From positions 42,689 through 106,688 of the forward strand of contig JAFSTO010000049.1 in assembly GCA_017450435.1 (NCBI GenBank): a DNA stretch of 64,000 bases. The letters are read 5' to 3'. Below are positions 6,905 through 45,996 of this stretch, one piece after another. Every line of letters starts with the position of its first letter. Position 1 is the stretch's first letter. The notes under the pieces were generated by a model. It did no database searches and was not told the DNA's origin. It worked only from the letters and a program-made list of their open reading frames with translations. Source of the stretch: Paludibacteraceae bacterium (GTDB taxonomy: Bacteria > Bacteroidota > Bacteroidia > Bacteroidales > Paludibacteraceae). The position numbers were made by a program, and so were the translations under genes.

Positions 6905-9217
6905 ATGAATGAAGAAATAATATATACCGAGCCCTTGAGCGTGTTGGTACTGCGTGAGAAGGTTCTTTTCCCGTCAGTACCTGTAACAGTAACCATCACT
7001 CGACCTGCCGCAAAGAGCCTTGTGGAAGAAGCATACGGTGCAGGCAAGATGATTGCAGTAGTGTGCCAAAAAGACAAGAAGACTCAGCGTCCGACAGTAG
7101 AGGATATCTACCAAACCGGCGTAGTGGCAGAGATTAAACGCATCATGTCGATGCCGGACAAGAAACAGATGGTAGTACTTGTGGCACATGAACGTATGCG
7201 TCTGCTAAATGTCATCAGCGAGAGTCCGTATATGTTGGCTCACATTGAAGCGCTGCCCGAGTTGCCCTACGATAGTCATGACCACGAGTTGATGAGTATT
7301 CTCCGCGCAATGCGGGAGACTCTTACCTCAATCATCATGCGCTCGGATAACATTCCTGAGGGACTGTTGCATGCCTTTGATGCCATAGACGACCCGGAGC
7401 TTGTGATAAACTTCTGCTGCTCAAGTATTCAGACAGAAAGCTCTGAGATGCAGGCGTTGCTTGAACTAAGCGACATCAAGGAGCGCGGTGCAAAGATGCA
7501 ACAACTGCTCAGCAACTTCGACAGTTACCAGCAGGCGCAGAAAGACATCAAGAAGAAGACCGAGGAGGTGGTGACGCAGAACCAGCGCGAGTATTACCTC
7601 CACCAGCAGCTTCGAGCCATTCAGAAAGAGCTTGGTGACACGTCAGCCCAAGAGGTGGATGACCTCAGAAAACGCGGCGAAAAGAAGAACTGGAGTACAG
7701 CAGTGGCTGAACGCTTTGAGGAAGAGGTAAAAAAACTGGAGCGAATAGGAATGCAGTCGCCGGAATACTCAGGTCAGCTCAACTACCTCGAAGTGATGCT
7801 TTCTCTGCCATGGAACGAGATGAGCACAGATAATACCGACCTGCGCCATGCGGAGCGTGTTCTCAACCGCGACCATTATGGTATAGAGCAGGTGAAGGAG
7901 CGTATATTGGAGTATTTAGCCGCAAACATGCGCGGCAGCATGATACTATGTCTATATGGTCCTCCGGGAGTGGGCAAGACCAGTCTCGGCAAGTCGATAG
8001 CATCTGCACTCGGCAGGAAATACGCACGCATATCGCTTGGCGGTCTGCACGACGAAGCCGAGATACGCGGTCACCGACGCACGTATATTGGAGCCATGCC
8101 CGGCAGGATTATTGACAGCCTGCGCAAGGTTGGAACATCTAACCCGGTGTTTGTTCTTGACGAGATAGACAAAGTGTATGCCGATTATCACGGCGACCCG
8201 ACATCTGCGTTGTTAGAGGTGCTTGACCCTGAGCAGAATAACACATTTCACGATAATTTCCTTGATGTGGATTATGATCTGAGCCATGTGCTTTTCATCG
8301 CCACCGCCAACACTCTGCAGAGTATTCCTCGCCCTTTGCTTGACCGCATGGAGCTCATCGAGATGAGCGGCTACCTTCAGGAGGAGAAAGAGCAGATTGC
8401 CAAACATTACCTTGTACCAAAGCAGCTTGAGCAGTATGGTTTAAAAAACAACGAGCTTCGCTTCGGTATCCAAAGTCTTCGCACTCTGATTGACGATTAC
8501 ACTCGCGAGTCAGGAGTACGTGAACTGGAGCGGCAGATAGCTGCCGTCATTCGCAAGATTGTGAAGAGACGCGCATTAGGCGAAGAGTACCCCGGCCAAC
8601 TGCGGCCCGATGACATACACAGTTTGTTAGGCAAGCCCCGTTTCAGCCGAGACAGGTATGAGGGCAATGACTATCCGGGCGTAGTGACAGGCCTGGCGTG
8701 GACGCAAGTTGGCGGTGAGATACTGTTTATCGAAACCTCACTATCTCCAGCCAAACAGCCCTCTCTGACCTTGACAGGCAACCTTGGTGATGTAATGAAA
8801 GAGTCGGCTACTATTGCGCTGAGTTACGCACGTGCACACGCAGATGACTTCGGACTGAAAGTGGCGGATTTTGACAAGAAAGCCGTACACATACATGTTC
8901 CCGAAGGCGCTATACCCAAAGACGGACCATCAGCAGGCATAACGATGACTACCGCCATCATTTCAGCTTTCAGCGGCAAGAAAGTGCGTGCTCGACTGGC
9001 CATGACAGGAGAGATGACACTCAGAGGAAAAGTACTACCGGTTGGCGGAATAAAAGAAAAAATCCTTGCCGCCAAACGAGCCGGCATAACCGACATCATT
9101 CTGTGCAAGGAAAACGAAAAAGACATTAACGAGATTCCTGAACGCTACTTGAAGGGGCTTCACTTCCACTACGTCAACGACATTCACGAAGTGATAGCTT
9201 TCGCACTGAACATCTAA
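6905..9217 (+). CDS. lon: ATP-dependent Lon protease
   Basis: A 770-aa cytoplasmic AAA+ serine protease that degrades misfolded and regulatory proteins. The order is LonN substrate domain (1-200), coiled helical region, AAA+ module with Walker [10 protein letters not shown] (about 350) and Walker [11 protein letters not shown], and C-terminal protease domain. The catalytic dyad is present as Ser676 in DGPSAGITM and Lys719 in GGIKEKILA. The length is close to E. coli Lon (784), slightly short for Bacteroidota, whose Lon often carries extensions. It starts 8 bp after the S24 regulator and is followed after 14 bp by the DUF2520 gene. Confidence 0.97.
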
Positions 9218-10153: not shown

Positions 10154-11266
10154 TCATTTAAACCTCTGCCAAAACGAAGTATCCTTCTCATTGTTTGCTT
10201 TCTTAGCCTGCTCAACAGAGGTCGGATAATTCTCGATAAACCACGTAAAGAAAGCCGTAACATCAATCTTATCGGCAAGCATTCGCTGACGCCGTTGCTG
10301 CCACTCTTCGCGGAGATTTGGCATAGCGAGCAGCTCTTCTATCTTTGCATAGAGCTTGTAGGGCTCACGCGACGAGATTCCATACGTTAGTCCATACACG
10401 TGTTCCAGTTCCTCCATTACACCAATCTTCTTTTTCCCAACGAAGTCGTTGAACCTCAATGACGGAATGCCTAACATTGCCGCCTCTACAGCCATTGACT
10501 GTGAGTCGCCGATATACAAAGTAGCGAACGCCATGAGATGGTGTATATCAAGCGGATTGATATGCATACGATACTGTTCGAACTGCGGTTCAAGCTCGCG
10601 CTCTGACGTGATAAGAATACGCCCATGCGGTGCAAGGATGTCAATGAGATGTTGAGCGACCTCTGTGGTGATACCTTGTACTCCAACATCGTGATGCGCT
10701 TTCAGACTGGCGAAACGGAAGATGAAATATGGTCGGTCGGGGTCTATTTGGTATTGTTCCACAATTTTTCTATCCGGAGAGAAACGTTTCGGATGCAGAT
10801 ATGCAAGTTTCTGGAATCCGGGATATTTAGTCGATTTAATATCCCATCGACCATTGTTGCAGCTATCCGGTGTTAAGACACATGAGGCAAATGGATAGAC
10901 CAATTTCGCAAAATTAGGCACCACATCGGCATCATCTTCTCCCATAGCAATCACTGATATACGATTAATTTTAGAAGCAGTAAATGATAAAGTTGAACCT
11001 ATTAATATATCAATCTTGTTTCGTCGAAGAAACTGCCACATATGATATTCCATTCCTAACACAGACCTTATAAGTCCTATTTTAGAACCGGTTCGACCCT
11101 CGCGAATTTTGAAGTATTTAAATCCAGCATTCTGGCACAAGGTCTCTAGGATGTCTTTTTTCTTAATCACAAAGAACACCTCATGACCGTGCACCTTCAA
11201 CCCCTCTGCAACATATTTTAGCATATGGAAATGTGCAGGATGTCCAAAGAACAATGCAACTCTCAT
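10154..11266 (-). CDS. DUF354 family glycosyltransferase-like protein
   Basis: A 370-aa protein of the DUF354 (COG1817) family, which shares the GT-B fold of UDP-GlcNAc 2-epimerase and MurG-like enzymes. The N-terminal motif FFGHPAHFHMLKYVAEGLK is the family signature, and GDSQSMAVEAAMLGIPSLRF near residue 275 is the nucleotide-sugar binding region. It may transfer or epimerise a sugar for surface glycan synthesis. It is the last gene of the acyl/glycan operon, 19 bp after the KAS III gene. The exact reaction is unknown for most members. Confidence 0.82.
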   Translation of the reverse strand: MRVALFFGHPAHFHMLKYVAEGLKVHGHEVFFVIKKKDILETLCQNAGFKYFKIREGRTGSKIGLIRSVLGMEYHMWQFLRRNKIDILIGSTLSFTASKINRISVIAMGEDDADVVPNFAKLVYPFASCVLTPDSCNNGRWDIKSTKYPGFQKLAYLHPKRFSPDRKIVEQYQIDPDRPYFIFRFASLKAHHDVGVQGITTEVAQHLIDILAPHGRILITSERELEPQFEQYRMHINPLDIHHLMAFATLYIGDSQSMAVEAAMLGIPSLRFNDFVGKKKIGVMEELEHVYGLTYGISSREPYKLYAKIEELLAMPNLREEWQQRRQRMLADKIDVTAFFTWFIENYPTSVEQAKKANNEKDTSFWQRFK

Positions 11267-11285
11267 TTCTCCGCAATAAATTAAA

Positions 11286-12281
11286 TTATTTAATCTTCAA
11301 CATTACTCCACCCCATGACAAACCAACACCAAAACCTGCTAAAAGTACATTGCCATGCAGTTTTCCTTCACGGCGAGCCTCTACCATCGCAATCGGAATC
11401 GTTGAGCTGACGGTATTGCCTACATGTTCCATGTATAGGTAGAATTTTTCTTTGTCTATATCCAGTAGTTTACGCAAATAGTTAATCATGTATTTGTTAG
11501 CTTGGTGGAATATCCATAAATCCACATCATCTTGAGCAACTCCACTCTTTTGCAACAACTCATTTACCATCGGTGGCACCACATCGGCAGTAAAATTGAA
11601 GACATTACCTCCGTGCATATACAGATAATCGCCACTGACAATTCCTTCATCCTCGTCCATCCGCAAGTCATTGAGCAGACCTTTGTGACGAGCACCAAGG
11701 CTCCGCACAATCAGGTTATCAGCACCACTCCCATCTGTACCAACAACCACTTCTCCGATTTCTGCAAATCCTTCTGTTGATATAAGTGATGCAGATGCTC
11801 CATCACCAAAGATTGTGCGATTACCCTTATCTTTCGGATGAATATATTTCGTATAGGTTTCAGCCGTAAGTAATAGTATATTTTTCGCAGTACCAGAAAG
11901 AATCAGCCCTTTGGCAATTGCTAATCCGTACTCATATCCGGAACAACCAAGATTAAAATCCAACGCTCCACAATGCGTACTGAGCCCTAAACGATCTTGT
12001 AACAAACAAGCAGATGATGGCAGAAAATAATCGCCACTCTGCGTGCATAGTAACACAAAATCTATGGTTTTTCTGTTTATTCCTTGTGCAAAGAGACGTT
12101 CAGCAGCTTGAAAGGCCATATCCGTGGCAGTCTCATTTGGAGCAGATATATGGCGTTCCGTGATTCCTACTTTGTTTGCTACTTTTTCAGCCGACCATTC
12201 TGGAAACTCTGCGGCTATCTGTTCATTTGTTAATACTTGCTCCGGCAAGTAATAAGCTATATCTTTAATAAATGCTTTCAT
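11286..12281 (-). CDS. 3-oxoacyl-ACP synthase III family protein (KAS III, FabH-like)
   Basis: A 331-aa thiolase-fold condensing enzyme. The Cys-His-Asn triad of FabH is complete: Cys113 in LGCSGYEYG, His259 in IFHQANK and Asn289 in HVGNT. It should condense an acyl-CoA starter with a malonyl- or acyl-thioester on ACP, or transfer an acyl group. Its place in an operon with its own ACP and SDR reductase, away from primary fatty-acid genes, argues for a dedicated role in making an acyl substituent for a surface glycan or lipid. The gene is 24 bp downstream of an acyltransferase gene. Confidence 0.9.
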   Translation of the reverse strand: MKAFIKDIAYYLPEQVLTNEQIAAEFPEWSAEKVANKVGITERHISAPNETATDMAFQAAERLFAQGINRKTIDFVLLCTQSGDYFLPSSACLLQDRLGLSTHCGALDFNLGCSGYEYGLAIAKGLILSGTAKNILLLTAETYTKYIHPKDKGNRTIFGDGASASLISTEGFAEIGEVVVGTDGSGADNLIVRSLGARHKGLLNDLRMDEDEGIVSGDYLYMHGGNVFNFTADVVPPMVNELLQKSGVAQDDVDLWIFHQANKYMINYLRKLLDIDKEKFYLYMEHVGNTVSSTIPIAMVEARREGKLHGNVLLAGFGVGLSWGGVMLKIK

Positions 12282-12305
12282 TACAAATATTCATTATAAT
12301 TTACT

Positions 12306-12866
12306 TCATATCAAAGCACTAAAATCCGCAGCTATCTTCATTGGGTTTCCTTTGGCTAAAGCACAATCAGGAATATCCTTATCCACAACCGTACCGGCAG
12401 AAACAATGGCGTTCTTACCTATCGTCACACCACGTAATATAATAGCCCCATCTGCAACCCATGCTCCTTCCTTAATCACCACTGGAGACACTCCGGATTC
12501 AACTACATTTTTAAAATGTCCATACGGGTTACTATGCGCTAAAATAGTTACATTACCCGCCAAAGACACATTATCCTCAATATATACATATTCCGGATAT
12601 GCATTGTCTATCGTGCAATGAAGTCCAATGTACACATTCTCTCCAATTGTGACCCCACGTCTTCTATTCCAACGCACCCTGAATTTATTCAACGGACATC
12701 TATATGACCATCTGCTTAAGATAATATTCCGAATCTTCCGCAATGCAAAACGCATTGGACTCATCTTTCTGCGGGAACTGGAATTTTGTATGGTCTTTCT
12801 TAGACTCGAATCATCATGGTCGAAATATGGAATCGAGATCGCTTCTCTTATTGTGTATTCCTTCAT
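12306..12866 (-). CDS. Left-handed beta-helix (hexapeptide) O-acyltransferase, paralogue A
   Basis: A 186-aa acyltransferase of the NodL/LacA/Maa-like hexapeptide family. Imperfect [LIV]-G-x4 repeats begin at GVTIGENVYIG (about 72) and run to GVTIGKNAIVSAGTVV (about 147-162), giving a trimeric beta-helix that acylates sugar hydroxyls. The catalytic histidine is probably the one in TILAHSNPYG. The N-terminal 65 residues are basic and helical, suggesting membrane association. It is clearly paralogous to the next upstream gene, sharing RRRGV-IG-NVY-G, PEY-YIEDN and the C-terminal IGKNA-VSAG block, which points to a tandem duplication followed by divergence. Confidence 0.88.
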   Translation of the reverse strand: MKEYTIREAISIPYFDHDDSSLRKTIQNSSSRRKMSPMRFALRKIRNIILSRWSYRCPLNKFRVRWNRRRGVTIGENVYIGLHCTIDNAYPEYVYIEDNVSLAGNVTILAHSNPYGHFKNVVESGVSPVVIKEGAWVADGAIILRGVTIGKNAIVSAGTVVDKDIPDCALAKGNPMKIAADFSALI

Positions 12867-12880
12867 TTCCTCTATGCATT

Positions 12881-13411
12881 TTAGTTCATTAACTCTCTAT
12901 ATTCCAGTACTTTCTTTGCAGGAACGCCTTTTACCATCGTATAGTCAGGTACAGATTTCTCCACTACGCTTCCTGCGCTTACTACCGCGTTCTTTCCTAT
13001 GGATACTCCCGGCATGATAGTACACCTGACTGCAACAATCGCTCCCTCTTTAATCAACACCGGTGCCATCTGCGCTTGGAAGATAGGAGCATATCGCTTC
13101 ATTGGGTTAAAATGCGTTAGGATCATCGTTCCGGCATTCACACTCGCATTATCCTCAATATAGATATACTCAGGATGGAGATTGTCCAAAAAACAGAACA
13201 TTCCTAAATAGACATTCTTGCCAATATGTACTCCACGTCGACGATGCATCCATTGCCGCAGTTTATTATTCGGACATGCATATGCCATCAGCATATAAAT
13301 TGTATTACGTATCTTTTGCATCTTTTGCACAAATGTCCGTTTCTGCGTTTCTTCGTAATATGGCACATTTTGTGCAGAAAGGATCTCCGGATATTGTTCA
13401 GAATTCATCAT
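12881..13411 (-). CDS. Left-handed beta-helix (hexapeptide) O-acyltransferase, paralogue B
   Basis: A 176-aa hexapeptide acyltransferase. The beta-helix starts at RRRGVHIGKNVYLG (about 57-70) and ends at GVSIGKNAVVSAGSVV (about 141-156). TMILTHFNPM carries the likely catalytic histidine. Its start codon overlaps the stop of the deacetylase gene by 4 bp (ATGA), so the two are translationally coupled. The neighbouring paralogue A has the same architecture; having two suggests two different hydroxyl positions or two acyl donors, an inference from context only. Confidence 0.88.
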   Translation of the reverse strand: MMNSEQYPEILSAQNVPYYEETQKRTFVQKMQKIRNTIYMLMAYACPNNKLRQWMHRRRGVHIGKNVYLGMFCFLDNLHPEYIYIEDNASVNAGTMILTHFNPMKRYAPIFQAQMAPVLIKEGAIVAVRCTIMPGVSIGKNAVVSAGSVVEKSVPDYTMVKGVPAKKVLEYRELMN

Positions 13412-14313
13412 GATTGAATAATTTTATTATCTTTAATCATACAAAATTCTCCTCCTCGTTCGCTCCAAAATTTCAGTTCCTTCTCCAACAAAGTTAAGGC
13501 TCTATGATCCAAATTTCGTAATTTAACCTTTGCTCTCAACACATCTGACAACAAATATCCTAATTTAGACTGTGCTCTATGTTGCGGAGTATACTCTTCT
13601 TCTATTTCCTGCACCGCTTCACTAGGATGATAAAGGAAAGTTATAGGGGTATCTTTTTGTTGGCTCTCCCAGTATAATAATCTCCTTGTCATAGGTAATA
13701 AGGAGTACGGCGCAATACGCATAACAGTACCAATATACGGGACACCATATGACGACACCGGTACTTCTACAATTCCTGATTTACCTTTTCGGGCCAGATT
13801 ATCAATGGCCGTTTCGTAAATAGCTCGCGGTGCTTTCAGCCATTGCTTTTTATTAGCACCCAATGACATAAAAGCATCCATACGTTGCGGTGCCACACTG
13901 CTGTCAAACTTAAATCCGGCCTCACGCAATGCCATCGGAGTATCACTATTAACTCGTAGGGCAGGAGCACGGAACGAAACCACTTCCTGACCTCCTATCT
14001 GTTCTAACAAATCCTTCGAATGACGTAATTCGGCAATCTGTTCCTCTAATGTCATCATATCGAATGCGCTACGATAATCATGCTGATAGCCATGCGAACC
14101 CACTTCTTGACCATGAGCCACAATCTGTTTGACGATATTAGGCTTCAATTCTGCTAGTTGCCCCAACACAAAGAAAGTAGATCTTACCTCGTATTTATCA
14201 TACAGTTCCAACAAACGAGGCAGGCCATCCTCGTCAACCTGCTTCGCAATTCGTTTCCATACTGCGCCACTTACGCTGGTATGCTCTACATCGTTGGAAA
14301 AAAATACTTTCAT
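13408..14313 (-). CDS. Polysaccharide deacetylase family protein (NodB homology)
   Basis: A 301-aa CE4-like protein. The metal-binding elements can be followed: FFSNDVEHTS (first Asp motif, in the DVE form rather than TFDDG), STFFVLGQLAE, EVGSHGYQHD (the HxxxH motif, about 73-82) and SFRAPALRVN. This pattern is closest to the deacetylases linked with exopolysaccharide systems (the DUF3473-type DVE subgroup). It probably removes N-acetyl groups from a sugar, which could create a free amine for acylation. It is 3 bp downstream of the SDR gene and overlaps the next gene by 4 bp. No signal peptide is seen, so it may act in the cytoplasm on a lipid-linked intermediate. Confidence 0.85.
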   Translation of the reverse strand: MKVFFSNDVEHTSVSGAVWKRIAKQVDEDGLPRLLELYDKYEVRSTFFVLGQLAELKPNIVKQIVAHGQEVGSHGYQHDYRSAFDMMTLEEQIAELRHSKDLLEQIGGQEVVSFRAPALRVNSDTPMALREAGFKFDSSVAPQRMDAFMSLGANKKQWLKAPRAIYETAIDNLARKGKSGIVEVPVSSYGVPYIGTVMRIAPYSLLPMTRRLLYWESQQKDTPITFLYHPSEAVQEIEEEYTPQHRAQSKLGYLLSDVLRAKVKLRNLDHRALTLLEKELKFWSERGGEFCMIKDNKIIQS

Positions 14314-14316
14314 CTA

Positions 14317-15036
14317 TTACAATGTTTGTGCTCCTCCCGTTAATTCAAAATTACTACCGGTCACCCATGCAGCCTCATCCGAAAGTAGATACACCACCAT
14401 CGGTGCTATATCTTCCGGTTGACCATATCGTTTCATCGGGTAAGCTTTTTCTGCTTCATGCAATTGATCTTCCGAAGCACCAACCAATGCCAGATCCGTC
14501 CATACCATTGTAGGACTGATGCAGTTCACGCGAATCTTCCTTGATGCCAGTTCCAGAGCCAGACACTTAGCATACGCAATCATCGCAGCCTTGGATGCAC
14601 TGTAGATTCCGTTCCCAACACTCGGCATGGTAGCAGCAGCGGAAGCAATAAAGACGATAGATGCTTCTTTGGCGATTTTCTTCTCTCGCAGCAACTCTGC
14701 CTGTAGCAACACCGGAGCTTCGAAATTTACGTTCATCACATGACGCACATCTTCAAGCTCCAGCATCTTGCCTAACACACGGCTGCCGATACCGGCACAA
14801 TGCACAACCCCGTCTAATGGAGGTAATGCATCCACTAACGATTGCCGCTGCGCATTATCCGTTAAATCAGCTGGAATAATGATGTGCTCATCCCTCTCCA
14901 TCAAAGCACGGGTATCTTCGAGACGCTCAATGTTGCGACCTGTCAGAACAACTTGTAGTCCTTTTTTTGCACAAGCAATAGCTATAGCGCGCCCAATGCC
15001 CGATGATGCACCTGTTACTAAGATTGTCTTAGCCAT
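14317..15036 (-). CDS. SDR family oxidoreductase (FabG-like 3-oxoacyl-ACP reductase)
   Basis: A 239-aa classical short-chain dehydrogenase. It shows the NADP(H) motif TGASSGIGRAI (8-18), the NVN-type motif MNVNFEAP, Ser132, Tyr145 and Lys149 of the catalytic tetrad (YSASK), and the substrate loop that follows. Its start codon shares one base with the stop of the ACP gene (TAATG), so the two are tightly coupled. Next to an ACP and a KAS III, reduction of a 3-oxoacyl-ACP to a 3-hydroxyacyl-ACP is the simplest reading, giving a 3-hydroxyacyl group for the acyltransferases. Confidence 0.9.
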   Translation of the reverse strand: MAKTILVTGASSGIGRAIAIACAKKGLQVVLTGRNIERLEDTRALMERDEHIIIPADLTDNAQRQSLVDALPPLDGVVHCAGIGSRVLGKMLELEDVRHVMNVNFEAPVLLQAELLREKKIAKEASIVFIASAAATMPSVGNGIYSASKAAMIAYAKCLALELASRKIRVNCISPTMVWTDLALVGASEDQLHEAEKAYPMKRYGQPEDIAPMVVYLLSDEAAWVTGSNFELTGGAQTL

Positions 15037-15260
15037 TATAACTTACTTTGTACCAAATCATAAACGTCTTTGATTGTCACAGCAGCTTTGAGTTCCGCCG
15101 GAGCAACTTTGACACCATATTTTTTAGCAATCATGTTGAGAATGGCCAGTCCGGTCAGACTACTCCACTCCTCTAATTCATGAAACTCGCACTCGGGGGT
15201 GAACTCATCTAAATCCGTTTCATCCCACTGTGCAGCAAAATTTTTAATAAACTCTTCCAT
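15036..15260 (-). CDS. Acyl carrier protein (dedicated, non-canonical)
   Basis: A 74-aa acidic four-helix carrier. I chose the ATG at 15260 because residues from a farther upstream start (15332) are lysine-rich and would overlap the preceding remnant. The phosphopantetheine site is at EEWSSLTGL: Ser34 takes the role of the DSL serine, but the usual Asp before it is replaced by Ser33, so this is a specialised ACP rather than AcpP. It would carry the acyl chain built by the neighbouring KAS III and SDR and hand it to the hexapeptide acyltransferases. Confidence 0.88.
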   Translation of the reverse strand: MEEFIKNFAAQWDETDLDEFTPECEFHELEEWSSLTGLAILNMIAKKYGVKVAPAELKAAVTIKDVYDLVQSKL

Positions 15261-15300
15261 AACTATTAAATTAATTTTTATCTTCTTCTTTTCAATATCT

Positions 15301-15495
15301 TTACGCCCCACGTTCCGAGCTTGTAGAGACATAGTTTTGCGTAATCATCAAATCATCAGAAATATACACATTCTTCACCACGTCATATCTCATGGCACGT
15401 AAACTTCTTGCACGTACCTTGGAGAACGGAAAGTGCACACCAATCTTATAAATGAGTTTATTTCGGATTCTGGTATAAATTTTACGTATCATCAC
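15301..15495 (-). pseudogene. Truncated hexapeptide acyltransferase (N-terminal remnant)
   Basis: A 64-aa frame whose sequence is the lead-in of a third beta-helix acyltransferase: a basic amphipathic N-terminus (MIRKIYTRIRNKLIYK) followed by VVKNVYISDDLMIT, the first hexapeptide turn. It stops at SSERGA, just where the repeats of a complete enzyme would continue. No continuation was found in the other two frames, so the rest has been deleted rather than frameshifted. It is the first frame after the promoter at 15.6 kb, so it would be transcribed and could still be translated as a short leader before the ACP gene. Confidence 0.65.
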
Positions 15496-15586
15496 TAAAC
15501 TAAATTTTAATATTGCTTCAAGGTTTAGTCACTCATTTCCTTAACAATTTATAGTTTTGCAACAGCTGTTAATTCAATAGCGGTTG

Positions 15587-15617
15587 CAAAATTAGAATAG
15601 TAATTTGGATTATACAA
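15587..15617 (-). promoter_or_regulatory. Bacteroidales-type promoter of the acyl/glycan operon
   Basis: On the minus strand there is TTG (15617-15615), a 20-nt spacer, then TAATTTTG (15594-15587). This matches the Bacteroidota sigma-70 pattern seen repeatedly in this window. It lies 92 bp before the truncated acyltransferase and should drive the whole minus-strand cluster down to 10154. Confidence 0.75.
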
Positions 15618-15829: not shown

Positions 15830-16792
15830 TTACAGCAACCTTAACCCTAATGAGCCGAGCGAATAAAGGAGGCGGTTATTCACACGCAGGAATCGGCCAA
15901 ATTCCTTCAGTTCGCCCCCGAACTGCAACTTGAAATCACGTACGCCGTAATGTTTGCCGGGTTCGCCGGCGCCCATAAGGTCGAAGAGCGGAAGATTATG
16001 TCGGTTAGCATAATCCATAGCAGCCCACGTGACAATAGGCGGACCGACAACGTACCATTCATAGAGCGTTTTACCTGTCAAAAAAGGGCATAACATTCCG
16101 CCGATAATCGTCCCCCCATGTCGTGCCAACAGCAGAACTCCTTTTTTATCGGCTACAAAGGTAGTAAAAAAAATCAAGTCAAACAACGGTTTATGAATTT
16201 TTTCTTTGTACAACCTGCACAACAGCTGATAAAACTCAACAACCTCTGTCTCCGAAGTAGCTTCTACTATTTCCACTCCCTCGTCTATTGCTCGGCGTAT
16301 CCGCCTCATCTTACTATCATTGACACGGCTCTCCATCATGCTTCGGTCTGAGCATGTGATATGCATATCAAAATGTGGCTTATATGCAAATCCGCATTGC
16401 TCGAAGACTGTGCGCCAGCGGCTATAATCGCAGAAATTGCGCGTCTCGGTATAAATAGCTTTCCTCAACGTAAACGAAACTACAGCTCCAAGCATTGCCT
16501 TCAACTCGTCATCAGTTATATCCTCTGCCAACAACGGCCCCCCAACGATGATTGCCCGTCGCGTAAAATACTGCTTCAAGAAGTTCCTCTCCTGTGTGAC
16601 GTAACCGACCACAACTCCTTTTAAGTTCTCACCACGAGAGACTGCAAAGGCAAATGGCGTCATCTGTGAAGGAACAGACGCATAAAAGTCATACGCCTCC
16701 GGCGTCTGAAACCACGAAGCAACCGAGGAAGAGTCAACAAGTTGTTGCCACTGTTCGTTGTCAATATCCCTGTATGTTGTATAAACGTTCAT
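15830..16792 (-). CDS. FemAB-like GNAT-fold acyl/aminoacyltransferase
   Basis: A 320-aa protein with two GNAT-like halves, as in FemA/FemB/FemX and the Acetyltransf_6 family. Recognisable parts are an N-terminal half with SWFQTPEAYDFY, a central basic helix (SKMRRIRRAIDEGVEI), and a C-terminal half with GGTIIGGMLCPF and YGVRDFKLQFGGEL. In Gram-negative bacteria such proteins sit in polysaccharide loci and probably attach an aminoacyl or acyl group to a lipid-linked sugar. I use the ATG at 16792 because the upstream MVTG adds nothing conserved. It follows the GT4 gene by 34 bp in the same operon. Confidence 0.8.
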   Translation of the reverse strand: MNVYTTYRDIDNEQWQQLVDSSSVASWFQTPEAYDFYASVPSQMTPFAFAVSRGENLKGVVVGYVTQERNFLKQYFTRRAIIVGGPLLAEDITDDELKAMLGAVVSFTLRKAIYTETRNFCDYSRWRTVFEQCGFAYKPHFDMHITCSDRSMMESRVNDSKMRRIRRAIDEGVEIVEATSETEVVEFYQLLCRLYKEKIHKPLFDLIFFTTFVADKKGVLLLARHGGTIIGGMLCPFLTGKTLYEWYVVGPPIVTWAAMDYANRHNLPLFDLMGAGEPGKHYGVRDFKLQFGGELKEFGRFLRVNNRLLYSLGSLGLRLL

Positions 16793-16826
16793 TCCCGTCA
16801 CCACCGGCGTATTCTCTTCTCAGTTA

Positions 16827-17777
16827 TCACTTTACAATCTTGTTATATATTTCCCGAACGCAGTGTGCCACATGCTTGTTATCCAGACCTCCTGATATGA
16901 TTCTGCTTCTACCGTCGGTCTTTCCGTTAAACGCCAATGCCTGACCAAGTAGTAGAGCCAAATCCTGCGGTTGGCGCGAGTGGGCAACAAAACAACCTTT
17001 TATTCCCTCTGTCCTTTCCTTCACATCTCCCACATCCACACTCACTACCGGGCATCCGCACGCCATAGCTTCCTTTACCACCTGTGGCGAGCCTTCAGTC
17101 TTGGATGTGAGTAGCAAAGCGTCTGCAGCGCACATAAGCAGCGTTACCTCATCGCGATTGTAGCCCTTGAGTTCAATGAGATGCACATTAGTGTTTTCTG
17201 ATAACGCATAAGCATCGTTGTGGGTTAGTTCAGCTACGGCAACCTTGGCTAACGGCGCGTTCTTGACCTGATTATCAAAGGCACCCGCAAAAAGGATGTA
17301 CTTCGCATCGGGCGACAGACACATCTGCTCACGAGCTTGTTGTTTGTCTGTCAGTTGTAAATCATTCAAATCCACTCCACACGGCAACAAGGAAAAACAA
17401 CGATGCGGATGTGCTATTTTCATCGTTGCTGCAGACACGAAGATATTCCATTGAGAAAGCATCATCGATAGTTTAGAAAACGTCCTTGGTATCTTGTTGT
17501 TGATATCCGACCCATGATATGTTGTCACCACCGGTGTCCTTCTTTGCAGGTTAGCCAACAATCCGCTCAAACCGTAGTGAGCATGAATAACATCAGGCTT
17601 ATACTCGGCTATTTTTCGCATCAGAGCAGGGAAGGCGGAAATATATCCGGAAATGCCCTTTCCTGTTACCCCGAACCAGTCTATCTCACAGCCTTCTCTC
17701 TGCAAAGCCGCCGCCTGCTCCTGTATGAACGGAGCGAAACGTTTTTTGTTATATGACGCTACGATAAGTACTCGCAT
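16827..17777 (-). CDS. Glycosyltransferase family 4
   Basis: A 316-aa GT-B fold retaining glycosyltransferase. The start at 17777 gives MRVLIVASYN; ATG at 17783 is equally possible, while a farther upstream start would overlap the preceding gene. Motifs include DVIHAHYGLSG (N-domain), VTTYHGSDIN, and in the C-domain the EX7E-type donor site TEGSPQVVKEAMACGCPVVS. It transfers a hexose from a nucleotide donor to a lipid-linked glycan on the cytoplasmic side of the membrane. It is in an operon with the GT-C-like gene (34 bp upstream) and the FemAB-like gene. Confidence 0.92.
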   Translation of the reverse strand: MRVLIVASYNKKRFAPFIQEQAAALQREGCEIDWFGVTGKGISGYISAFPALMRKIAEYKPDVIHAHYGLSGLLANLQRRTPVVTTYHGSDINNKIPRTFSKLSMMLSQWNIFVSAATMKIAHPHRCFSLLPCGVDLNDLQLTDKQQAREQMCLSPDAKYILFAGAFDNQVKNAPLAKVAVAELTHNDAYALSENTNVHLIELKGYNRDEVTLLMCAADALLLTSKTEGSPQVVKEAMACGCPVVSVDVGDVKERTEGIKGCFVAHSRQPQDLALLLGQALAFNGKTDGRSRIISGGLDNKHVAHCVREIYNKIVK

Positions 17778-17811
17778 AATCATGAATAAAGCAGCTAAAG
17801 GCAGAGTATTT

Positions 17812-19260
17812 CTATAGTCCGCGTCCACGCAACTTGAACCAGTTCCACCCGACAAAAGCCAAGAACATCAACAAGGTCCAGTAGTTGTATAATCTCTTTT
17901 CGCGTGGGTGCTTAATCACCTCGTACATTCCGTAAGCTGAGAACATCAGCATAAAACAAACAATAGGCATGTGGAAACGCTCAGCTTGCGCGAAGTTACT
18001 AAATGCCAACACGACAAGATACCCGCCATAGTAAGCACCGGTCAGGACATATTTACGCCACTCGCCGGAGAAAATCAGAGTAAACAGACTATAGATAACG
18101 AATCCGGACATTATGTTCTTCACAAAGTTTCCGCCATGAATAAGACGCTGGTTCTCCTGATTCGGGAGATTTGTTGCAGAAGGGAACGGAAGTGTGAATA
18201 TCATCGGGGCGAACACTATTGCTCCTGCGTACTTAGCGAAGCGATTAGCACCGGCTGAGCTGGAACGTGTGGAGCGCCACTGCATTGCCTTCTGCTGCTC
18301 TTCCACCACATTATGGGTTGTCAGTTCACGAACCTCACTCTCCAAACGTCCGCCTACCATTGACAAGAGAAGCAATCCAGCAATTAGAATCATAATGATA
18401 CGTTTGCCCCAATCGACCACCCTATCCGTTGTGATAGTCAATGCCGTGAGCAATGCCAAAATTGTTACAGCGCCCAAGACGGTTCGGAAAGTGAACAAGG
18501 TGAGCATACAGATAGCCATCGGCACCATCTTCCACACATTGAACTTCTTGAGACGCATAACCTGGTCAGCCTGTTCGATAGCCACGACAGCAAGGAAACA
18601 CATCTCCGTCTCCTTAAGGTGCAGACCGCAATAGAGAATCAGATTTGGCATTAGCATACAGAAGATACCCGTCATGCGCCCCACCCCTTCGCCGAAATTG
18701 CGAGTGGCAAGTCGCGACATAATAAGGGCAGTAACCGCACTTAAGAACGCCTTTATAAACCGCACAACGAGCAGACTGTCACCTGTAAGCCAATACACAA
18801 AGCCGAGATAAGCCGGATAGCCCATATCAGAGAAAGCTATTTTGCCACTGGTATATTTATTACAAATATCATACACCGCAAAATTACCTTCCCTAAAATT
18901 TTCCGAAAGAACTCTACCCATATCATCGTAGAACAAAACGTCACCGGCAGAGAACTCGAAGTGCTCGCCTGTCATGACGAAATAGAACCAATAGGAGAAC
19001 AACACCCACACAGCTCTTATACCAAATGCTGTCCAAAAGAGTCTCTTCTCAAAAGTTTTGGTAGTAAGCCTTGCCCACGACCGAGTCAGCCTGTTAGATA
19101 CGTAAAAAAAGCCGACGACCTCAACAACGCCAAACACATAAAAATACCACTCCATGGCATAACTCATAAACCATAGAGTAACAACAGCCAACGCCGCAAA
19201 ATAAATCATAATGGCGCGGTTGCTAACCCACTTGGGCATATATGCAAGAGGTTGCTGCAT
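17812..19260 (-). CDS. Polytopic membrane protein, GT-C glycosyltransferase-like
   Basis: A 482-aa integral membrane protein with about 11-12 hydrophobic segments. After the third predicted TM helix a loop carries FSAGDVLFYDDMGRVL, an acidic pair in the position of the catalytic first-loop Asp of GT-C enzymes (GT39/GT87-like), followed by the conserved YPAYLGF. This supports a polyprenyl-phosphate-sugar-dependent transferase or a polymerase acting on the periplasmic side. O-antigen polymerase is the main alternative. It is first in a three-gene minus-strand operon behind a strong promoter. Confidence 0.7.
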   Translation of the reverse strand: MQQPLAYMPKWVSNRAIMIYFAALAVVTLWFMSYAMEWYFYVFGVVEVVGFFYVSNRLTRSWARLTTKTFEKRLFWTAFGIRAVWVLFSYWFYFVMTGEHFEFSAGDVLFYDDMGRVLSENFREGNFAVYDICNKYTSGKIAFSDMGYPAYLGFVYWLTGDSLLVVRFIKAFLSAVTALIMSRLATRNFGEGVGRMTGIFCMLMPNLILYCGLHLKETEMCFLAVVAIEQADQVMRLKKFNVWKMVPMAICMLTLFTFRTVLGAVTILALLTALTITTDRVVDWGKRIIMILIAGLLLLSMVGGRLESEVRELTTHNVVEEQQKAMQWRSTRSSSAGANRFAKYAGAIVFAPMIFTLPFPSATNLPNQENQRLIHGGNFVKNIMSGFVIYSLFTLIFSGEWRKYVLTGAYYGGYLVVLAFSNFAQAERFHMPIVCFMLMFSAYGMYEVIKHPREKRLYNYWTLLMFLAFVGWNWFKLRGRGL

Positions 19261-19276
19261 ACACTATAACGCACTG

Positions 19277-19307
19277 CAAAATTACTGCTTTTTAGTGAGA
19301 TTTACAA
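19277..19307 (-). promoter_or_regulatory. Promoter of the GT-C/GT4/FemAB operon (extended box)
   Basis: On the minus strand: TTG (19307-19305), 20 nt, TAATTTTG (19284-19277). The spacer ends in AAAAAGCAG, the extended box shared by six promoters here. It lies 17 bp before the ATG of the GT-C gene, so the leader is very short. It is divergent from the promoter at 19378. The 332-bp gap 19261-19592 holds these two promoters and a long leader for the epimerase gene. Confidence 0.8.
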
Positions 19308-19377
19308 TAGTAAAACCACAATATTTCAACAAATTCGACACTTATTGCATCGCCATTGTTTTTTTTACGATTTTCTT

Positions 19378-19407
19378 TTGTTATACAAAAAAAAAGCAGT
19401 AACTTTG
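19378..19407 (+). promoter_or_regulatory. Promoter of the methylmalonyl-CoA decarboxylase operon (extended box)
   Basis: TTG (19378-19380), a 19-nt spacer ending in AAAAAGCAG, then TAACTTTG (19400-19407). Transcription would start near 19413, giving a leader of about 180 nt before the epimerase gene. A 29-codon frame begins at 19412 but is not supported by anything else. Confidence 0.82.
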
Positions 19408-19592
19408 CAAAATGGAATACTTTGTAGGCAAAGTAACGACATACAAGACACATGCGGCACAAATATTCCGAATAAACTTGGAGCAATGCCACCGAACATA
19501 ATTACTGCGATAATGGCATAAAAGAGGGGAAGGCTTGCTTCAACAACAAACATCACAAAGCAAATAACCAATTAACAAAAAACAATAAAACT

Positions 19593-24236: not shown

Positions 24237-24267
24237 TTGTGTATATGAAAAAAAAGCAGTAATTTTG
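24237..24267 (+). promoter_or_regulatory. Promoter of rplU-rpmA (extended box)
   Basis: TTG (24237-24239), a 20-nt spacer ending in AAAAAGCAG, then TAATTTTG (24260-24267). It is near-identical to the rplM promoter over 23 bp, including the CAG that follows. Confidence 0.85.
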
Positions 24268-24282
24268 CAGTCGATTTCGCAA

Positions 24283-38734: not shown

Positions 38735-38765
38735 TTGGTCAATTGAAAAAAAAGCAGTAATTTTG
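38735..38765 (+). promoter_or_regulatory. Promoter of rplM-rpsI (extended box)
   Basis: TTG (38735-38737), 20-nt spacer ending in AAAAAGCAG, TAATTTTG (38758-38765). The region from the A tract through CAGTCG matches the rplU promoter base for base. Confidence 0.85.
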
Positions 38766-38826
38766 CAGTCGGTTTGCGGGTAAAGGGCAAAGAGTGTCCA
38801 CCCCAAAACACATTTTTTACTAACAC

Positions 38827-42884: not shown

Positions 42885-44075
42885 ATGAAGTGCCGCTTAC
42901 AAATTCTGTCACTAACCTTCCTACTCTCTCTCAACCTCCTTGCCGCAGCCCAAACGCCTGCCAAGCCTCAGGCTGTATATGTAGGAACAACCGACAAACC
43001 TTCGCTGCGCTACGAAGACGCTCTGCAGTTTCGTATTATAAACCGAGGTTTTCCGTACGCGAAAACAAACGAAGCTGAGAACCAGAGCGCACAATATACC
43101 GAGAGTGCCTACACTCGTTTGCCCGTTTATCTGAAGGACTCTGTTCGCGAAAACCTCTGGTGGCTCGCAGGTTGCTCCACAGGCATCGGCATACGGTTTG
43201 CAACAGACTCAAGAACTATAGCTGCACGATATAATCTCAAGCGAAACTTCTACATGGCCCACATGGCGATGACCGGCATCAAAGGTACTGACCTCTATCG
43301 TCTTGGAGAAGACAACAAGTGGCACTACGTCAACACCTGCAGGCCAACAAAAGACTCCGTGCAGCACAAGGTGTATGTAGAGAACATGGACGGAATGATG
43401 CACGAATATCTTATTTACCTGCCTCTATATGATGGCAACAATTGGTTTGAGATTGGCGTTGACAGCACTGCTCGCCTCGAACAGCCACATGTTGACAATC
43501 CACGGCGCAACAAAGGGAAAATTGTGTGCTACGGCACCAGCGTCATGCAAGGCGGATGTGCCACACGCACCGGTATGACACAAACAACGATGCTGCAACG
43601 CGACCTTAATATAGAGGTCGTCAACCTCGGGTTTTCCGGCGAGGGCAAGATGGACTACTGTATAGCACGTGCTATGGCTTCTATACCCGACGTTGTCTGC
43701 TACGTCATTGACCCCGTACCAAACTGCACCAAAGACATGTGCGACACGCTGACCTACGGGTTCATACGTATTCTGCGTGATGCTCACCCCGATGTGCCGA
43801 TTATTATGGTAGAAGGACTAACCTACCCTTACGCCAAGTACGACTCTTATTTCCGGGACTATCTGCCCGCGAAGAACGCCGCCTTCCGAAGGAATTATGA
43901 ACAGCTCAAAAAAGAAAATCATAAAAACCTCTATTACATGACCACCGACGGCATGACCGGACTCGACGAGGAAGGTACCGTTGACGGAATACACCTCACA
44001 GACATAGGCTTCCGAGCATATACCGATAAACTGGAGAAAATACTAAGAAAGGTCATGAAGAAACAACTGAAATAA
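42885..44075 (+). CDS. Secreted SGNH/GDSL hydrolase
   Basis: A 396-aa secreted esterase. Signal peptide to about residue 22 (LLAAAQ), then a beta-sandwich N-domain (about 30-200), then the SGNH domain. Block I is CYGTSVMQGG (nucleophile Ser), block II NLGFSGEGKMD (oxyanion Gly), and block V DGIHLTDIG (Asp and His). Block III Asn is probably in DPVPNCT. This two-domain form is common in Bacteroidota and often deacetylates polysaccharides, though the substrate is not known here. It stands between a beta-barrel gene and the decayed RHS locus. Confidence 0.9.
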   Translation: MKCRLQILSLTFLLSLNLLAAAQTPAKPQAVYVGTTDKPSLRYEDALQFRIINRGFPYAKTNEAENQSAQYTESAYTRLPVYLKDSVRENLWWLAGCSTGIGIRFATDSRTIAARYNLKRNFYMAHMAMTGIKGTDLYRLGEDNKWHYVNTCRPTKDSVQHKVYVENMDGMMHEYLIYLPLYDGNNWFEIGVDSTARLEQPHVDNPRRNKGKIVCYGTSVMQGGCATRTGMTQTTMLQRDLNIEVVNLGFSGEGKMDYCIARAMASIPDVVCYVIDPVPNCTKDMCDTLTYGFIRILRDAHPDVPIIMVEGLTYPYAKYDSYFRDYLPAKNAAFRRNYEQLKKENHKNLYYMTTDGMTGLDEEGTVDGIHLTDIGFRAYTDKLEKILRKVMKKQLK

Positions 44076-44116
44076 ACATCTTGCAAACAACGGAATAACA
44101 TTTGGCGTGTTTTAGC

Positions 44117-44353
44117 ATGAGGCGCATCTTTCTCATACTATTCTCACTAACTTTATCAATTACACATGCCAATGATTTTGTCGTAATATCTGAGATAATG
44201 TATGATACACCCCTTAATGAGAATACTGCAGTCACGCCACACAATTTTGGAGAGTATATTGAACTATACAATGCAGGAGAACAAGAAACAAATCTATATA
44301 ATTGGCAGTTGAACATTAGAGAAACATCCGAAACGTTCTATCACACAAAGTGA
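44117..44353 (+). pseudogene. Truncated lamin-tail-domain N-terminus of an RHS-type protein
   Basis: A 78-aa fragment with signal peptide (MRRIFLILFSLTLSITHA) and the beginning of a lamin-tail domain (FVVISEIMYDTP, then GEYIELYNAG and LYNWQL). In Bacteroidales this combination is the N-terminus of very large secreted RHS proteins. Here it is cut after NIRETSETFYHTK, and the adjoining frame carries a C-terminal toxin-like segment, so thousands of bases of the gene have been lost. The start at 44117 is chosen for the signal peptide; TTG at 44102 is unlikely. Confidence 0.7.
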
Positions 44354-44639
44354 TAAAGGTAGATTAGACTATACATCATATCATAATTCCATAATAGATA
44401 TCAAAAATAAGTCCTATTTTTATTTACCATAAAAGAGCCTTTACGCACATGATCCAAGTAATTTCGGCAATTTTTTATGGGGACATGCAATGGCATCAAT
44501 GCATATTTCATACGGAGAAGCAGTAATCGGTTCTCATTTCCACAATCTTGTGGTTTCATACTTGTATGAAAAAAAATTTCAACTTGATTCATTTGACGAT
44601 CATTTGTCCATATTCTTGGGATATTTTTATACCACATAA
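44349..44639 (+). pseudogene. Remnant of an RHS C-terminal toxin-like domain
   Basis: In the frame that begins AGT at 44349, 96 residues are open except for one TAA at 44430. The sequence reads DKGRLDYTSYHNS near the start, then after the stop AHDPSNFGNFLWGHAM, HFHNLVVSY and DSFDDHLSIFLGYFYT. The FGNFLWG, H-N and DD-x-x-SI-x-x-GY spacing resembles the C-terminal domain of polymorphic toxins I associate with Ntox44-like sequences, so this is a tentative family call. It has no start codon and is directly joined to the lamin-tail fragment in another frame, the sign of an internal deletion. Confidence 0.5.
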
Positions 44640-44693
44640 ACATATTCAACCATTTACTACAGTATGTGGTAAAATAATTCCACATCGGATACT

Positions 44694-45416
44694 ATGAAAA
44701 CGTCAAGCATAAAAACAGCAATATTAATAGGTTTGATATTTCTCATTGTGTTCCAATTCTTAATGTATAGTTTTTCTTTTATATTAGGCGGAACTCCATA
44801 TATCAAACATAAGATTCATAAAATGTTAGTGTGTGAGTTAAAAGAAATAATTCCACACATTGATAATGATTCGTTACTCATGAATGAATATATGGGATTA
44901 CAATGGTATATATATAGTAGAACGGAGCCGATACAATCAATAGATATTCCTTTAAATAATAGAAAAGTAATATCTTACATCATCAGAAAAGAAGAATTTG
45001 CTCTTTATCCCGAAGAATTGGCTGTTGTTGAAGACAAAGTTTATCTGAATGTTCCTTTGATAATTCATAAGCCCCATTCTCCCCACAAAAAAACAGAAAT
45101 GAATAATAAAACCATTGAGAGAATGGTAATCGAAAGTAAGGAGCTTTGTAAATCATTGATTCTTAACAATGATTCTAACATGCACTTTGTCGGAGTGAGT
45201 TGGCTGAAAAATGATAAATTATGGGAACTGTCAGATTCCTCCAGTCAACATTTCTCTAAATACACTTGCGATTTTTATTTACTTTTTTATTATAAGTTAT
45301 GGTTATACCAATTAGTCTATGTAAACGATGAAACAAAAAATAAAATGTTAGAAGATGACGTATATACACACATTTGGTCTAATTGGTTTCTCCGTCCATA
45401 TATGTGGAAATTATAA
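44694..45416 (+). CDS. Unknown 240-aa membrane-anchored protein (candidate immunity protein)
   Basis: Not recognised. It has one N-terminal transmembrane segment (about 8-33, TAILIGLIFLIVFQFLMYSF) and a charged extracytoplasmic or cytoplasmic domain rich in Lys, Asn and Ile. The AT content is clearly higher than in the housekeeping genes around it, which suggests later arrival. It sits 54 bp after the toxin-like remnant and before an RHS core fragment, the place where an immunity gene or a displaced orphan module would be. It is intact, which is what is expected when immunity outlives a toxin, but no motif proves this. Confidence 0.55.
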   Translation: MKTSSIKTAILIGLIFLIVFQFLMYSFSFILGGTPYIKHKIHKMLVCELKEIIPHIDNDSLLMNEYMGLQWYIYSRTEPIQSIDIPLNNRKVISYIIRKEEFALYPEELAVVEDKVYLNVPLIIHKPHSPHKKTEMNNKTIERMVIESKELCKSLILNNDSNMHFVGVSWLKNDKLWELSDSSSQHFSKYTCDFYLLFYYKLWLYQLVYVNDETKNKMLEDDVYTHIWSNWFLRPYMWKL

Positions 45417-45422
45417 ATGTAA

Positions 45423-45632
45423 GTTTATTCAAAGAACTATGTAAGAAAAACCTGGTTTAATCCTGTTCCAAATTATAAGGAATGGTTCCAACGTATGCAG
45501 TACTACCCAAGTGGATTACCTTGGGATATTAGCCAAAATTCCAGTCAGCAGCCATACAAGTATGTTAGCAAGGATTTTGTCGAGATGCATGGATTAGATG
45601 AGTATGACTCATACGCACGGTGGTATTTTTGA
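45423..45632 (+). pseudogene. RHS core fragment (orphan 3' module)
   Basis: A 69-codon frame without start codon. It reads FQRMQYYPSGLPWD, then QQPYKYVSKDFVEMHGLDEY, then DSYARWYF and stop. This is the highly conserved end of the RHS core just before the toxin, with the usual QPYKYNGKEFVEMHGLDEYD form; here the GK is changed to SK. The YPAI and DPLAEKYY segments that should follow are gone. A second core after a toxin and immunity set is typical of RHS loci that keep alternative C-terminal cassettes. The gap 45417-46145 holds this fragment, a frameshifted signal-peptide fragment, repeat copy 4 and the promoter at 45966. Confidence 0.85.
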
Positions 45633-45662
45633 TAAACTTAAAAATAGCACTTCCATAACAAA

Positions 45663-45789
45663 ATGAAACGAACTACAGGAATATTATTTTATACTTTCTA
45701 AACACTTTGTGTGTATTTTTTAGTGTGACAAATGCGTCTAATTATATACATTTCCCTATAGAAAATGATACCATAATTAATAAAATAAA
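45663..45789 (+). pseudogene. Frameshifted fragment with a signal peptide
   Basis: ATG at 45663 opens MKRTTGILFYTF and then stops. In the next frame the text continues NTLCVFFSVTNASNYIHFP, giving a normal-looking signal peptide if one frameshift is assumed. The rest runs into repeat copy 4. It was probably a small secreted gene of the RHS neighbourhood and is now broken. Confidence 0.4.
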
Positions 45790-45790
45790 A

Positions 45791-45845
45791 GAGACGGTAA
45801 AAAATACCGTCTCTACACTTGGGCGGAACGTTGTTCGCGGAGACA
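45791..45845. repeat. Dispersed palindromic repeat, copy 4
   Basis: GAGACGGTA (45791-45799) pairs with TACCGTCTC (45805-45813), then ACTTGGGCGGAACG and ACGTTGTTCGCGGAGACA (45828-45845), the last identical to 4614-4631. It interrupts the reading frame of the broken secreted gene, so it may have inserted there. Confidence 0.7.
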
Positions 45846-45965
45846 TTGTTGTCTATACCATGGTCGGTTTTTGTAATTTTGTATTAGCTTTGTAGCGATT
45901 AAATCAAGATATAGTTTTAGACGAAAACTTTTATTGAAATTTAACGAACTATTGTTAGAAATAAT

Positions 45966-45996
45966 TTGCAAGTATGTAAACTTTTTCTTACCTTTG
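45966..45996 (+). promoter_or_regulatory. Promoter of the secreted unknown gene at 46146
   Basis: TTG (45966-45968), 20-nt spacer, TACCTTTG (45989-45996), giving a leader of about 145 nt. Confidence 0.8.

Follow-up and report, generated by a model that had tools for sequence, protein, structure and literature searches.

The acyl operon and its enzymes

The 64,000-nucleotide (nt) window from a Paludibacteraceae bacterium (the whole stretch of DNA analyzed here, on contig C33 of a 2.65-Mb assembly of 76 contigs) carries a minus-strand operon, from ca. 15.5 to 10.15 kb, which is discussed as a candidate module for acyl exchange on a surface glycan. The operon encodes a 63-amino acid (aa) open reading frame (ORF), an acyl carrier protein (ACP), a short-chain dehydrogenase/reductase (SDR), a NodB-type deacetylase (PDA), two paralogous hexapeptide acyltransferases (HxA and HxB), a ketoacyl-ACP synthase III (KAS III) and a DUF354-like protein (Table 1). 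Genomes and loci compared with the window are denoted by G and L numbers. All genes named in the initial annotation were present, namely an ACP with an SSL site, SDR, KAS III, PDA, two hexapeptide acyltransferases, a DUF354-like gene, and adjoining GT-C, GT4 and FemAB genes. Its claim of tight coupling by gene overlaps held at 2/6 gene junctions (ACP/SDR, 1 nt; PDA/HxA, 4 nt) but not at the other four, where gaps of 3 to 24 nt were found.

The ACP reading frame, with its ATG start at 15260, exceeded the PF00550 cut-off of 20.8 bits when scored without the first codon, and was the weakest of 8 PF00550 matches in its own genome. The modifiable serine on which the initial annotation depended was present (WSSL) and conserved in 16/16 aligned homologues; the homologues compared for residue conservation were those scoring > 100 in 18 chosen loci. 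The top NCBIfam match of SDR was a glucose 1-dehydrogenase subfamily, followed by FabG models, all below cut-off among the 25 matches listed, and its Ser-Tyr-Lys residues were conserved in 15/15. The ketosynthase belongs to KAS III, carrying PF08541 and PF08545 domains and the Cys-His-Asn triad; it exceeded the NF006829 cut-off (249 bits) and remained below that of TIGR00747 fabH (242 vs. 292.1 bits). Cys113 was conserved in 20/20 homologues, and His259 and Asn289 in 19/20, with one gap each. Identity to four FabH-like proteins from other families of the order was 26 to 29%, and a quick tree placed KAS III apart from these four. When KAS III was aligned to 4nhd, Lys stood opposite the Trp and Arg that bind CoA in FabH, and the primer may therefore be handled differently.

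PDA exceeded the PF01522 cut-off (23.1 bits) and is a member of the polysaccharide deacetylase family. Asp8, Glu10, His74, His78, Arg115, Pro117 and His229, presumably its metal and catalytic motifs, were conserved in 11/11. Its other Pfam matches were DUF2334 and a weak GH57, with none to the LpxC family. No hydrophobic N-terminus or signal peptide was seen in PDA, which would therefore be placed in the cytosol with ACP and HxB. Proteins of 250 to 275 aa with very weak PF01522 similarity, below cut-off, recurred in glycan loci (L060:8977-9729, L061:8263-9090, L055:9995-10759, L096:11298-12101 and L171:445-1251), and may be a second, diverged deacetylase.

HxA and HxB scored below the TIGR03570 (NeuD/PglB/VioB family) cut-off (50.2 and 48 vs. 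160.8 bits). In a tree of 28 hexapeptide proteins, HxA-type proteins formed one clade (support 95/97) and HxB-type proteins a core (88/89), with some HxB-type proteins left unplaced outside the HxA clade. Hexapeptide proteins with a profile score ≤ 60 or shorter than 140 aa were left unclassed as HxA or HxB, as were the long-branch proteins of L095 (second hexapeptide protein), L143 and L156.

Association of the deacetylase with HxB and the proposed acyl exchange

In an exploratory comparison, PDA tracked HxB-type and not HxA-only acyltransferases across loci and gene orders. PDA was present in 12/13 HxB-type cases (G000, G015, G211, G016, G263, G259, G271, G197, G084, G522, G408 and G161, the case without PDA at the locus being L061 of G176) and in 0/7 HxA-only cases (Fisher p = 1e-4; this and the following p-values are uncorrected for shared descent). 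No genome-wide PDA match was found at E 1e-12 in the HxA-only genomes (G217, G371, G195, G352, G266, G160 and G073). Leaving out the two divergent cases (G161 and G176), the counts were 11/11 and 0/7; counting G161 as HxA and keeping G176, they were 11/12 and 1/8 (p = 8e-4); inside the genus of the window, they were 7/7 and 0/3 (p = 0.008). L099 (G195) was classed as HxA-only, with an in-frame stop in the G195 HxA, and L097 (G217) was kept as HxA-only, with a KAS III and an ACP of another subfamily (30 and 32%). The initial proposal of a dedicated set of the 3-hydroxyacyl-ACP type in a glycan locus, with acyltransferases and a deacetylase that could free the acceptor, is supported.

The six-gene set of ACP, SDR, PDA, HxA, HxB and KAS III was found in five genomes (G000, G015, G211, G016 and G263). 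The gene order ACP-SDR-PDA-HxA-HxB-KAS III was kept in four of them, as had been anticipated for relatives, and G015 had HxA before PDA. Movement of the cassette is suggested by the G016 set, which had no GT-C, GT4 or FemAB match in 19.9 kb and was accompanied by another DUF354 protein (29% over part). Two relatives are Paludibacteraceae metagenome-assembled genomes from deer. HxB at ≥ 65% identity was found in 8/358 family genomes, and HxB was found in 1/395 genomes of a phylum sample, that one being its own.

Judged from the enzyme classes encoded, the operon is probably (roughly 0.6) a cytosolic module that deacetylates and then reacylates an amine of a surface-glycan precursor. On the dedicated ACP, KAS III would condense malonyl with a short primer, acetyl-CoA or another, to give acetoacetyl-ACP, and SDR would reduce it to a 3-hydroxyacyl-ACP. 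The product would most simply be 3-hydroxybutyryl-ACP, because genes for a dehydratase, an enoyl reductase and an elongating synthase are missing from the operon. PDA would N-deacetylate an acetamido sugar of a precursor that is linked to a nucleotide or a lipid, HxB would move the 3-hydroxyacyl group onto the freed amine, and HxA would acylate another position, more likely a hydroxyl. The glycan would be built and handled by the GT-C, GT4, FemAB and DUF354-like proteins. The reactions and their order, the acyl group and its chain length, the acceptor sugar and the N- or O-linkage are predictions.

The initial annotation was right in calling the acyltransferases two paralogues, but its term O-acyltransferases seems too narrow, HxB being better explained as an N-acyltransferase. 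The top NCBIfam matches of both proteins, although below cut-off, were O-acetyltransferases (heptaprenylglyceryl-phosphate, WcaF-like, Maa and LacA), as expected if both were O-acyltransferases for acetyl or 3-hydroxybutyryl and PDA deacetylated the glycan itself, whose amine would then stay free, a state found in partly deacetylated polysaccharides. Periplasmic polymer deacetylases have a hydrophobic N-terminus for export. This alternative is improbable, as PDA has no such N-terminus and its tracking of HxB rather than HxA would be left unexplained.

Aminotransferases of the DegT family (PF01041) were found in 19/19 genomes searched, with none on C33 and none within 9 kb of a cassette. The nearest PF01041 matches on the same contig were at about 10 kb (G195), 12 kb (G522), 16 kb (G084) and 19 kb (G211); others may have gone unseen where contigs are short, and G176, G043 and G049 lay outside this search. 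An ordinary cassette of the viosamine or wfp type, in which 3-hydroxyacyl-ACP is used on an aminotransferase-made amino sugar and PDA is unrelated, would agree with the four DegT matches on other contigs of the genome and with the many loci that carry the ACP, SDR and KAS III core without PDA. Such a cassette is nevertheless unlikely, since PDA tracks HxB-type proteins across loci and orders, adjoins HxB even in L096, where ACP and KAS III are about 4 kb away, and belongs to a subfamily whose partner in two further genomes is a formyltransferase.

A profile of the PDA subfamily built from 13 members scored these at 462 to 517 bits, and other PF01522 proteins of the same loci at ≤ 98 bits. In the search of relatives, for which PDA was the sole criterion, the subfamily was found in 5/61 genomes, three with HxB and two distant ones (G043 and G049) with a formyltransferase (PF00551). 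The formyltransferase followed PDA directly on the 3' side in L055, whereas a small ORF lay in between in L056; its top NCBIfam match was ArnA, with Fmt close behind, all below cut-off. No KAS III or ACP match was found in the 13.7 and 18.4 kb examined of G043 and G049. The PDA proteins of these two genomes were 68% identical, so that a single event may account for both pairings with formyltransferase. What all the pairings would most simply share is an amine exposed by PDA and re-capped by a partner, either the acyl set or a formyltransferase. Proximity to an ArnA-like formyltransferase in G043 and G049 is also what would be expected of an ArnD-like deformylase in a cycle of formylation and deformylation. 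For the window this is very improbable, as its operon has no formyltransferase and PDA scored 112.7 bits with the XrtA-system deacetylase model against 27.6 bits with ArnD, both below cut-off.

Production of a free lipid or signal similar to a Nod factor, rather than modification of a surface glycan, would be the least expected function. The functional parts of the operon equal NodB, NodF, NodE, NodG and NodL of the Nod set, and PDA weakly matched the NodB equivalog TIGR04243 (44.8 bits vs. a cut-off of 240). No NodA or NodC match was found among the operon proteins, however, and the set sits in glycan loci with GT4, GT-C and FemAB genes, which makes this function highly improbable.

Besides the DegT matches elsewhere in the genome, several points weigh against the acyl-exchange reading. 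Acetoacetyl, or a longer or branched chain, is also conceivable as the acyl group, given the Lys residues at the FabH Trp and Arg positions of KAS III, and PDA could be a deformylase similar to ArnD. The idea of the association came from the initial loci, to which L147 and L154 (with PDA) and L107 and L116 (without PDA) were added since, and the p-values are exploratory because only these four cases were new. G161 was first classed as HxA-only and was shifted to HxB-type, post hoc, once its PDA was found. Besides its HxA set, it has another that is divergent (HxB-type, 41%) and breaks off at a contig edge (L101); its PDA is on another contig (L171), where it comes after the end of a KAS III. 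L061 has an HxB-type protein and no PDA at the locus, the rest of the G176 genome lying outside the PDA search; a 275-aa protein two genes upstream had insignificant PF01522 similarity (E 0.12). The contigs of L100, L102 and L154 are short, the end of a contig holds the L107 set, and the assemblies of several genomes are incomplete. Finally, within 5 kb of this KAS III there was no SDR in L107 and L124-L126, no detectable ACP in L147, and neither in L115 and L120.

KAS III distribution, flanking genes and promoter elements

Among loci with this KAS III at ≥ 55% identity, the window included (n = 46), ACP was found within 5 kb in 41, SDR in 38 and both in 36. KAS III was found in 43/358 family genomes (E 1e-60) and in 37/393 sampled genomes of the order (E 1e-80), the window's own genome included in each. 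The KAS III matches of G072, G023, G069, G160:C188 and G178:C197 were left out of the locus comparison, and L031 and L032, duplicates of L093 and L053, were counted once. Sets of ACP-KAS-SDR-KAS resembling wfp were found in several Bacteroidales families (L119, L121, L136 and L141), and L161 had the same parts in another order. With the ACP, SDR and KAS III core present at many loci of Bacteroidales, glycans decorated with acyl groups may be commoner in this order than has been looked for.

In its own genome, KAS III matched itself alone, and PF08541 was found in one protein. Among 37 genomes of the same genus, own included, PF08541 was found in 14 (for most, counted by domain match alone) and was absent from 23, five of them ≥ 95% complete; it was present in 21/24 genomes from other families of the order. 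Housekeeping FabH may thus be missing from the genus, against which weigh the incompleteness of many genomes and the absence of PF08541 from 3/24 outside genomes as well. PlsX, used as a marker of housekeeping fabH, had no match in the window's genome, nor in a Bacteroides control, and was therefore uninformative. FabH-independent initiation has been reported in Escherichia coli (PMC8666670), and the many genomes of this genus without any KAS III matter for how fatty-acid synthesis starts.

Table 1. Positions in the window of the operon, the neighbouring glycan genes and the repeated element, with supporting matches.
Feature	Position (nt)	Strand	Match
63-aa ORF, perhaps what is left of the N-terminus of a third hexapeptide acyltransferase	15301-15492	-	30% over 47 aa, HxB homologue
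ACP, 74 aa	15036-15260	-	PF00550 25.1 bits, motif EEWSSL
SDR, proposed 3-oxoacyl-ACP reductase	14317-15036	-	PF13561 174.6 bits
PDA, NodB-fold deacetylase, proposed to free a sugar amine	13408-14313	-	PF01522 75.6 bits
HxA, proposed to acylate a second site (O-acyl more likely)	12881-13411	-	PF00132 42.4 bits
HxB, proposed N-acyltransferase paired with PDA	12306-12866	-	PF00132 47.4 bits
KAS III, proposed maker of acetoacetyl-ACP	11286-12281	-	NF006829 262.5 bits
Last gene of the operon, distantly related to DUF354, possible GT-B fold	10154-11266	-	PF04007 14.5 bits
FemAB/GNAT-like protein, neighbouring glycan operon	15830-16804	-	PF02388 21.1 bits, below cut-off of 24
GT4 glycosyltransferase	16827-17855	-	PF13692 51.3 bits
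Multi-pass membrane protein, GT-C type through a homologue	17812-19260	-	36 hydrophobic windows, no Pfam match of its own
19-bp element copies	19275-19293, 19391-19409, 24251-24269, 38749-38767, plus four weaker	-, +, +, +	

The G+C content was 0.41 to 0.48 from ACP to the DUF354-like gene against 0.49 to 0.51 in seven flanking genes. A gap of 569 bp separates the end of the GT-C/GT4/FemAB operon from ACP downstream of it. The limit first set for the cassette, 15495, takes in the 63-aa ORF, which is separate from and outside ACP. This ORF had no Pfam or NCBIfam match; its closest match among the compared loci, own-genome copies aside, was an HxB homologue, which it resembles at the N-terminus (E 0.016), and it may be the N-terminal stub of a third hexapeptide acyltransferase. 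In L031, a gene for an AAA_14/DUF4143 ATPase (7082-8368) occupies the place of the 63-aa ORF between FemAB and ACP, and the gap may be an insertion-prone point. Elsewhere in the window, G+C drops to 0.316 at 44001-46000, against 0.43 to 0.47 in the adjoining 2-kb steps. A 9.1-kb region had no match in the plasmid collection.

The DUF354 label fits the diverged homologues in L054 and L056, which pass PF04007 (36.5 and 53.9 bits), and is weak by sequence for the window protein, which is below the gathering cut-off of 22 bits. The only match of the family profile among solved structures in PDB was UDP-GlcNAc 2-epimerase, which was insignificant (E 0.62); the protein is possibly a GT-B-fold enzyme. 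DUF354-like relatives were found in 70/150 family genomes at E 0.001, far outnumbering the acyl set, and the gene is therefore assigned to the wider glycan scaffold. The GT-C-type homologue L053:4653-6236 was 44% identical to the membrane protein and matched PF03901 (25.5 bits), with PF13231 below cut-off. A FemAB-like gene was a frequent neighbour among the compared loci.

A candidate promoter was found in the gap 5' of ACP (TTG, 20 nt, TAATTTTG; 15617-15587) by its match to the Bacteroidetes promoter motif. It is overlapped by an inverted repeat at 15549-15597 (22 nt, loop of 5 nt, 82% complementary), which may be an attenuator, an operator or chance. The 19-bp element AAAAAGCAGTAAYTTTGCA had 8 matches in the window at ≤ 3 mismatches against 0.08 expected; the Bacteroidetes -7 motif lies within it, and it may represent an extended form of core promoter. 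Upstream of the GT-C gene, a pair of copies point away from each other. An invertible promoter considered at 19275-19409 (inverted repeat I2) was rejected, a divergent promoter pair being likelier because the 19-bp arm recurs at this excess and has the -7 motif inside.

Comparison with known systems

Stand-alone acyl-building sets had been thought undescribed in the initial annotation, but vioS, vioR, acp and vioB of Pseudomonas syringae (PMC3927599) and wfpC-wfpG of Flavobacterium psychrophilum (PMC6519341) are published, and the acyl-building half is therefore known. The viosamine island of P. syringae (vioS, vioR, acp, vioB and vioA) gives a product with a 3-hydroxybutanamido group; flagellin of a vioR mutant had no modified viosamine by mass spectrometry, and the functions of vioS and acp were assigned by homology (PMC3927599). 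The window shares with it a KAS III, a 3-oxoacyl-ACP reductase (whose substrate is predicted here), an ACP and an acyltransferase in a glycan locus. It differs in that the amine comes there from the aminotransferase VioA acting on a dTDP sugar, with no DegT-family aminotransferase found on the window's contig, and in that the seven genes described for the island include no deacetylase and one acyltransferase of the VioB kind, whereas the window has PDA and two hexapeptide enzymes (PMC3927599).

In the O-antigen locus of F. psychrophilum, also of the Bacteroidota, wfpC-wfpG are predicted to encode ketosynthases, a reductase, an ACP and an acyltransferase for a 3,5-dihydroxyhexanoyl group, and an amide-linked hydroxyacyl group was shown in the O-polysaccharide by nuclear magnetic resonance (PMC6519341). 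The two systems have in common their own ACP, reductase and acyltransferase. That locus has two ketosynthases, whereas the window operon has one KAS III and its genome one PF08541 match; the amine is attributed there to pglE/pglF, the acyltransferase is similar to PglD, and a deacetylase is not mentioned in the parts of the account consulted (PMC6519341). The 3-hydroxybutanoyltransferases FdhC and QdhC of enterobacterial O-antigens place an (R)-3-hydroxybutanoyl amide on a sugar, the acyl group proposed here; 3-hydroxybutanoyltransferases also belong to O-antigens of Hafnia alvei, where one is proposed to make GlcN(R3Hb) from GlcN. Terms for an acyl carrier protein were not found in that account, nor a deacetylase in the parts consulted (PMC4869667).

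The open-access literature searched gave no case of a PF01522 deacetylase that goes together with a transferase for hydroxyacyl or formyl groups at a glycan locus, and the version with deacetylase and acyltransferase looks new. In the viosamine and Qui2NAc4N pathways, as far as the accounts consulted describe them, an aminotransferase acts before the unusual N-acyl group is added, whereas here the amine seems to be uncovered by removal of acetate and then re-capped. If so, N-acyl diversity in the glycans of gut Bacteroidales would be predictable from a deacetylase beside a hexapeptide or formyl transferase, and the system would be small enough for rebuilding in vitro.

The lipid A pathway LpxA-LpxC-LpxD modifies an acetamido sugar by means of a deacetylase and two acyltransferases of the hexapeptide type, with 3-hydroxyacyl-ACP as donor, and the operon would follow the same logic. 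It differs in that PDA is of PF01522 and not of the LpxC family, in that HxB scored far below the LpxA and LpxD models (NF003657, 25.6 vs. 226 bits; NF002060, 29.3 vs. 207 bits), in that the modules occur apart, and in the short acyl chain proposed; neither model was among the best 25 of 34 NCBIfam matches of HxA. In Nod factor synthesis (NodB with NodA and NodFEG), a deacetylase of the NodB fold uncovers an amine, which is then acylated from a dedicated ACP, whereas here the acyltransferase is of the hexapeptide type and KAS III stands in the place of NodE. A wider and tentative reading, possible rather than probable, is that the window represents a modular acyl exchange parallel to LpxA-LpxC-LpxD with mostly different enzymes and short chains, in which HxA would form a 3-hydroxybutyryl ester, PDA would remove the N-acetyl group in the cytosol and HxB would form a 3-hydroxybutyryl amide from one shared ACP, with PDA as a plug-in of Bacteroidales loci that would change the N-acyl group of a surface sugar together with either an acyl set or a formyltransferase.

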